DNA of 43,439 nt, from positions 1 through 43,439 of the forward strand of contig CAMBDE010000010.1 in the NCBI GenBank assembly GCA_945865295.1, given 5' to 3'. Origin of the DNA: Chitinophaga pinensis (GTDB lineage Bacteria > Bacteroidota > Bacteroidia > Chitinophagales > Chitinophagaceae). A program made the translations under genes and the position numbers. Shown here one piece after another: positions 8,101 through 8,237 of this stretch. The notes under the pieces are model-generated. The model worked only from the letters and a program-made list of their open reading frames with translations. It had not been told where the DNA came from and searched no databases. Within the stretch, counting starts at the first letter, position 1. The number at the start of each line of letters is the position of its first letter.

Positions 8101-8237
8101 GTTTCGAAGCTGTGTCAAAAGCTTGCTTTTGTAAACAGATGAGAAGTAAAAAACCCAACGAAATGCGCAGCATTTTGTTGAAAGGGTTTGGGTACTCCCA
8201 ACTCTGAAGGAAGACGTTTTGAGCAAAGCGAAAAACG
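8101..8237 (+). repeat. tRNA-Leu-linked structured repeat, copy 1
   Basis: This non-coding stretch matches 25513-25650 in layout. Bases 8101-8153 match 25513-25565 at 50 of 53 positions. It holds three hairpins. The first, 8110-8138, is CTGT, internal loop, CAAAAGC, TT, GCTTTTG, internal loop, ACAG. The second, 8156-8180, has an 11-bp stem with a GCA loop. The third, 8215-8237, is CGTTTT, GA, GC, AAA, GC, GA, AAAACG. Each core AAGGGTTTG or AGGGTTTG follows the second hairpin. No credible ORF lies here; the antisense frame is an artefact of the repeat. Its role is unknown; a REP-like mobile palindrome or a trailer RNA are possible. Confidence 0.7.

Follow-up and report, generated by a model that had tools for sequence, protein, structure and literature searches.

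A fold fused to the 3' ends of tRNA genes in Sediminibacterium and some other Bacteroidota is probably a hitherto undescribed RNA that arises when transcription passes the tRNA terminator

What follows the two tRNA-Leu genes in a 43,439-nucleotide stretch of DNA filed under Chitinophaga pinensis (contig CAMBDE010000010.1, positions 1 to 43,439; hereafter the window)? An earlier note on this DNA had described a shared downstream element that begins just past each tRNA terminator, at 8101 in the first copy. We found that the element is real and present in two copies, but that it starts at the first base after each tRNA (8069 and 25481) rather than at 8101, that the terminator hairpin belongs to it, and that its closing helix, P0, had been overlooked. 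The full fold is a four-way junction in which P0 joins the start of the trailer to a strand some 110 nt downstream, past the hairpin P3. Both window copies, taken from the base after the tRNA through the last base of P0, fold into this junction. The parts are as follows.

7985..8068, + strand: tRNA-Leu(CAA), discriminator base included (the ARAGORN end is one base later, 8069)
8069..8190, + strand: trailer junction copy 1, whole (P0-P1-P2-P3-P0), 122 nt
8069..8076, + strand: copy 1 P0 5' strand, from the first base after the tRNA onward, paired with 8183-8190
8070..8100, + strand: copy 1 competing fold, an intrinsic-terminator hairpin (8070-8097) with a T tract to 8100
8077..8090, + strand: copy 1 P1, the upper half of the terminator hairpin
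8092..8156, + strand: copy 1 P2, conserved 65-nt hairpin with a RARG/RYGA internal loop and a CUYG loop
8157..8179, + strand: copy 1 P3 hairpin
8183..8190, + strand: copy 1 P0 3' strand
25395..25480, + strand: tRNA-Leu(GAG), discriminator base included (ARAGORN end 25481)
25481..25604, + strand: trailer junction copy 2, whole, 124 nt
25481..25488, + strand: copy 2 P0 5' strand, paired with 25597-25604
25482..25512, + strand: copy 2 competing terminator hairpin with T tract
25489..25502, + strand: copy 2 P1
25504..25568, + strand: copy 2 P2
25569..25593, + strand: copy 2 P3
25597..25604, + strand: copy 2 P0 3' strand

As had been claimed, 8101-8153 and 25513-25565 are identical at 50 of 53 positions. 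Of the three differences, two occupy opposite sides of a single stem (8113 T / 25525 A and 8135 A / 25547 T), and the last (8147 T / 25559 C) replaces G-U with G-C. The hairpins that come next, CAACGAAATGC with GCATTTTGTTG in copy 1 and CAACAATTCCGC with GCGGAATTGTTG in copy 2, are each paired, also as described. Fold-energy z-scores were -6.40 for copy 1 and -6.46 for copy 2, with none of 200 dinucleotide shuffles as stable. (Note that an extra, more variable hairpin of the GGAAGAC...GGCAGTCC type, whose shape we take to be reminiscent of REP hairpins, stands 3' of each junction at 8209-8244 and 25622-25646; strict and loose patterns for it match the window at these two sites only.)

A blastn search of the source genome with copy 1 returned, besides the window copies, three matches with E < 1e-6, which follow tRNA-Ser(GGA), tRNA-Cys(GCA) and tRNA-Arg(TCT); the remaining matches had E values of at least 0.03. 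We then inspected the trailers of the genes given by 36 matches to the Rfam tRNA model, some of these trailers being cut by contig ends. Diverged copies were present in the trailers of Arg-CCT, Glu, Gln, Leu-TAA, Ser-TGA and Pro, and the tRNAs for Asp, Val, Phe, Ala and others had a plain terminator or none, without the element. At E <= 1, a model built on the 65 nt of P2 with the tRNA excluded (R2) gave 18 matches in this genome: 14 above 36 bits, three reverse-strand readings of these, and a single weak match away from tRNA ends (C48, 25.3 bits, E 0.44). Because the match on contig C11 is a repeat of the Pro copy at a contig end, there are 13 distinct copies. All are at tRNA 3' ends, 11 of them after intact tRNAs and two after displaced fragments, namely 3' pieces of tRNA-Met (C37) and tRNA-Lys (C16). 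The copy after tRNA-Arg(TCT) is rearranged and was missed by R2; from C22:20674 onward it is enlarged, apparently with one P2-like hairpin nested within another. (A pattern match away from tRNAs, at C2:36322, was taken as chance, as R2 does not recover the locus.) Thus the model search of the genome and its relatives that had been proposed found copies well beyond the window pair.

The P2 hairpins of eight copies from this genome could be aligned without gaps over 65 columns. In this alignment 96.4% of stem cells are paired (100% in the outer helix), and two-sided changes occur in 14 of 24 pairs; no shuffle out of 500 reached either the paired fraction or the number of two-sided pairs, and the covariation score was 0.595 vs 0.161 in shuffles. 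In a set of 62 non-redundant copies, the paired cells amount to 95.1%, two-sided changes occur in 22 of 24 pairs, and there are 327 two-sided-change cells vs 90 in shuffles, figures that lean towards the model because the rows were fitted to it. (The gap-free alignment of eight copies, like the P0 swap tests described below, is independent of any fitted alignment. Note also that because the copies are related by descent, neither the P2 covariation counts nor the strand-bias counts given below represent independent events.) Consistent with what the earlier note had suggested, the structure appears to be under selection rather than recently duplicated, since pairing is kept by compensatory changes across many copies. 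The outcomes that the note had named as fatal to its proposal, a lack of further copies or a loss of pairing, are the opposite of what we found.

The unpaired columns of P2 are conserved as well, with RARG opposite RYGA and a C-U-Y-G loop. In the 62 copies, columns 17-53 are A.G in 57; columns 18-52 are G-C in 26, A-U in 15 and G-U in 8; and columns 25-45 are G.A in 55, beside U-A (39) or A.G (11). These conserved non-canonical pairs are of the RNA type, and we counted them in favour of the junction acting as RNA. (A hammerhead-like core (GAAG/AUGA) was considered and set aside, the topology being wrong.)

P0 was studied in 27 copies chosen by hand for diversity, all with an intact tRNA; two copies from the search of the phylum described below, L278 (a near-repeat of L282) and L276, were left out. 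In these copies P0 is 8-19 positions long, with some mismatches, and in 23 of the 27 its start lies no more than 3 bases from where ARAGORN ends the tRNA. The P0 strands scored a mean of 10.9 with their own partners vs 7.06 with swapped partners (sd 0.29; maximum of 500 swaps 8.2), and the corresponding values for 105 copies were 7.78 and 6.21 (sd 0.10; maximum of 300 swaps 6.56). Two distant copies also fold to the junction, with z-scores of -12.6 and -12.8. (L276 has P2 immediately next to tRNA-Tyr, with no sign of P0 or of a terminator hairpin.)

Within the element, the hairpin at 8070-8097 with its T tract qualifies as an intrinsic terminator and the rest does not; beyond this first site we found no second terminator-like site within 7900-8400 (copy 1). 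At least four T occur among the six bases after the terminator stem in 104 of 105 copies, so read-through could be infrequent. A P0 strand doubles as the 5' arm of the terminator, whose 3' arm together with the T tract forms an arm of P2. Because terminator and junction share strands in this way, the two folds are mutually exclusive in full.

We next compared G-U with A-C oppositions, which the score used for this comparison rates alike. In the 14 outer pairs of P2, 115 copies of 65 nt contain 119 G-U vs 7 A-C when read on the tRNA-sense strand, a count to be read with the caveat that the T tract constrains one arm; in columns 10-14, which lie beyond the T tract, the count is 107 vs 1. P3 has 48 G-U vs 9 A-C on the same strand (135 of 144 copies scored), a preference that disfavours P3 as a reverse-strand terminator, which it resembles when read from the opposite side. 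P0 has 12 G-U and 10 A-C and thus no bias. (For P0 in the 105-copy set the counts are 11 G-U vs 23 A-C, the helix search having overrun there into neighbouring bases.) Such an excess of G-U in P2 points to a single strand of tRNA sense, that is, to RNA or, less likely, to single-stranded DNA, and it argues for RNA over duplex DNA. The element therefore has the marks of a structured RNA: compensatory changes in P2 and P0, and tolerance of G-U on one strand in P2. Moreover, in three genomes (L204, L274 and L276) the P2 core occupies the Tyr-Gly gap of a tRNA cluster ordered Thr-Tyr-Gly-Thr, with no terminator hairpin visible by eye, a position inside a tRNA cluster that supports transcription of the element. 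(In L274, from genome G308, the T arm of the upstream tRNA-Tyr, near 1559-1712, apparently has extra bases.)

The genus is referred to here as Sediminibacterium, after named records that share the P2 core; some such records bear other names. A model designated R1 gave matches at E <= 0.01 in 33 genomes out of 60: 30 of the 37 from the genus (counting the source genome) and 3 of the 23 from elsewhere in the order; in G040, the only one of these three that was inspected, the copy follows tRNA-Pro. With R2 at E <= 1e-4, matches were found in 9 of 395 genomes sampled across the phylum: two of the genus, one more of the family, five from a single other family of the same class, and one from another class. 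The element is also present in records of Gilvibacter and Subsaxibacter, which we take to be Flavobacteriaceae. There were 23 phylum matches outside the source genome, and 19 of the 22 that were fetched have a tRNA directly upstream (one of these copies, L278, being cut by a contig edge); the other three comprise L274, after a tRNA-Tyr with an odd 3' end, one at a contig edge, and L281, without a tRNA.

In all we gathered 144 unique copies, from the fetched part of the R1 matches (110 loci) and from records sharing the P2 core; two proved to be reverse-strand readings, and the 142 others were sorted by hand. An intact tRNA lies at most 60 nt upstream in 108 of them, with 18 kinds represented by anticodon, and in 101 of these 108 P2 begins 20-30 nt after the tRNA. 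A further 23 follow a match to a tRNA 3' end (7 to 20 or more bases; a fragment or a contig edge), such matches being counted from 10 bases upward. The remaining classes are three copies after a tRNA-Leu-like arm, two in tandem, and six after a short sequence ending GGCTAC or GGCTGC without a tRNA. Given that 7 of the 37 genus genomes have no match and that a tRNA-Lys copy was lost to an island in the source genome (see below), the element is dispensable; this weighs against the trailer-RNA explanation preferred below, as do the well-kept T tracts, the unbiased P0 and the want of a second terminator-like site in copy 1. (One locus, L203 on CALPWK020000047.1, is filed under Comamonas sp. lk and has the element after tRNA-Arg(TCT); the contig is perhaps a mis-binned Sediminibacterium contig.)

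Among 4227 Rfam families, the tRNA family alone matched the window at its gathering score, and 20 further loci likewise gave nothing but tRNA above gathering scores. Other matches stayed below threshold, for example freshwater-1 with 13.2 of 72 bits. No description of such an element was found in those portions of the open-licence literature that were searched, including passages of PMC2864571, PMC8040213, PMC9723704 and PMC12306157. Taken together, a fold kept by matching mutations and the lack of a match in the RNA-family library suggest that the tRNA-fused fold is probably a hitherto undescribed RNA, arising from transcription past the tRNA terminator.

How might such an RNA arise and act? 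RNase Z cleaves after the discriminator base. Transcription that stops at the T tract would give a transcript with the short hairpin only, and maturation would proceed normally. A read-through transcript, on the other hand, would refold to the junction, with P0 flush against the acceptor stem of the tRNA. Since P0 begins right after the discriminator base, a cut by RNase Z would set the 5' end of the trailer RNA and would release a compact RNA of about 120 nt. Such an RNA would come from about a dozen tRNA genes, its output would be in step with tRNA synthesis, and its conserved P2 core would probably bind one partner. We tentatively prefer this explanation, in which a four-way-junction RNA of read-through tRNA transcripts begins directly after the tRNA, is freed as trailer RNA and binds a partner through P2; it may well be correct, without our confidence in it reaching an even balance. 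Of the alternatives that the earlier note had listed, a trailer RNA or a processing signal stands as a candidate.

The main rival to the release of a trailer RNA with a P2 partner, which we infer to be the most likely reading, is a purely cis-acting role, and we regard that role as a real, if less than evenly weighted, possibility. The junction would then serve as a backup that secures termination, or else 3' end maturation, in read-through pre-tRNA (for example, by masking or exposing the site cut by RNase Z), and any free RNA would be irrelevant. The position of P0 at the tRNA end, its rivalry with the terminator for a strand and the inclusion of the T tract in a P2 arm would all fit such a role. 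However, the sequence-conserved unpaired core of P2 suggests a partner rather than mere bulk, and many tRNAs of the same genome lack the element.

Several known RNAs resemble parts of the released trailer RNA that we propose. The 3' external transcribed spacer of leuZ is a short sRNA sponge of the unstructured type. It has in common with the element that a tRNA trailer fragment has (here, is proposed to have) a job of its own; it differs from a 120-nt junction found in about a dozen trailers. The rtT RNA of the E. coli tyrT operon is a repeated RNA that follows a tRNA in one operon, arranged in tandem units with part of a tRNA 3' end. The element is likewise repeated after tRNAs. Tandem copies of it or of its core, 133-179 bp apart, occur only in L173 (G006:C14:2641-2884), L190, L217 and L225; unlike rtT, it follows many tRNA genes, and it has no match in Rfam at the gathering score. 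According to PMC8144298, the RrA, RrB and RrF sRNAs of E. coli rRNA operons are read-through RNAs made past a first terminator, between two terminators, and they occur as several near-copies whose structure is conserved among relatives. The element resembles them in being multi-copy and structured beyond a stable-RNA terminator, with read-through as a proposed origin with which the strand bias agrees, but it has a different fold, follows many single tRNA genes, begins at the tRNA end, shares the strands of the terminator, and in copy 1 has no second terminator-like site up to 8400.

A less probable explanation is that the element acts as DNA, as a single-stranded hairpin of a mobile or recombination element (REP- or integron-like) that spreads with islands at tRNA ends; single-stranded DNA might likewise favour G-T over A-C. 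Two copies in the source genome, and others elsewhere, follow tRNA 3' fragments at island ends. In particular, the intact tRNA-Lys gene (C16:18103) lacks the element, and a 3' fragment of tRNA-Lys with the element lies 4.6 kb further on, on the same strand, an arrangement that fits integration of an island at the tRNA 3' end and displacement of the native trailer. (The 4.6-kb stretch, C16:18103-22827 (L172), holds one 1394-aa ORF with a C-terminal Por_Secre_tail sorting domain.) Copies also occur in series on one strand with cargo genes between them, a ground for weighing an integron-like cassette site, for which part of the island ORFs were scanned. At L168 (G009:C21:84000-103500), two serial cargo stretches beside tRNA-Met (one with a multicopper oxidase, one with NosL, Fasciclin and others) are each closed by a tRNA-Met 3' piece with the element; at L167 (G014:C53), L206 and L174, copies separated by cargo genes (Fic, SDR) come after non-tRNA sequence ending GGCTAC. 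Tandem copies, as noted, exist too. Against this explanation, no recombinase was found among the part of the island proteins scanned, which in L168 covered 9 of 21 ORFs and gave no integrase. (In the window, a tyrosine recombinase gene (PF00589, E 6.5e-44) lies at 23522-24430, about 1 kb upstream of tRNA-Leu(GAG); judged by the strength of the match, it is perhaps a chromosomal Xer protein.) Searches of viral, phage and plasmid collections with two exact patterns and one blastn query each gave no match.

Homogenisation within genomes, which recent spread should leave, was not seen either. In a comparison of 64 labelled copies, out of 110 extracted, from 21 genomes, the P2 similarity between copies at different tRNAs was 0.696 within a genome vs 0.685 between genomes, and that between copies at the same tRNA across genomes was 0.754; the copies thus behave as paralogues without homogenisation. 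The REP-like element targeting tRNA ends that the earlier note had put forward fared no better. The check for a RAYT gene that it had called for gave no match to the Y1 transposase domain PF01797 in the source genome (94.84% complete). This domain is present in 12 of 61 genus genomes, and among the 37 covered by both searches it occurs (E <= 0.001) in 1 of 30 that bear the element vs 5 of 7 that do not, with one of these five (G032) below the family cut-off. (Y1 transposase genes were found in G010, G013, G030, G035, G065, G066, G069, G072 and G082, mostly larger Sediminibacterium genomes; R1 finds no copy of the element in G010, G013, G030 and G035, and R2 finds none in G069.) On the absence of the Y1 domain and the inverse distribution in the genus, we rejected a REP/RAYT identity. 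Nor are there many dispersed extragenic copies, the 13 distinct copies being at tRNA 3' ends and the C48 match being weak. Measured against REP/RAYT systems (PMC12306157), the element is similarly short, repeated, hairpin-forming and extragenic, but it is bound to tRNA ends, has no accompanying RAYT domain and lacks homogenisation within genomes.

A cruciform in duplex DNA, which the earlier note had also raised, or a palindromic protein site near strongly transcribed genes is very improbable: long inverted repeats do adjoin the tRNA genes, but their arms vary in sequence with the pairing kept, and the preference in P2 for G-U over A-C on one strand argues against either. Least probable of all is that a normal terminator is followed by sequence that is there by chance or through recent duplication. 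The terminator stem is itself well kept (60 G-U and 2 A-C, with 6 other mismatches among 1650 pairs, in the 138 of 144 copies that could be scored), yet P2, P3 and P0, situated beyond the T tract or spanning it, covary, and distant genomes have the fold in common. The explanation is refuted unless the covariation is an alignment artefact, of which the gap-free alignment and the swap tests are free.

Returning to the released trailer RNA, a bolder form of this reading, which we consider possible although doubtful, is that the element is a tRNA-fused RNA switch. Read-through would swap the terminator for a junction stacked against the tRNA acceptor stem; cleavage by RNase Z would then free a multi-copy regulatory RNA, coupled to growth, from about a dozen tRNA genes. 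tRNA trailers are usually regarded as waste, and here a large conserved structure stands at the exact end of many tRNAs. If transcribed, the element would be an RNA family that is linked to how one genus supplies its tRNAs and that has relatives elsewhere in the Bacteroidota; it would also provide a natural case of a terminator that becomes something else when it fails.
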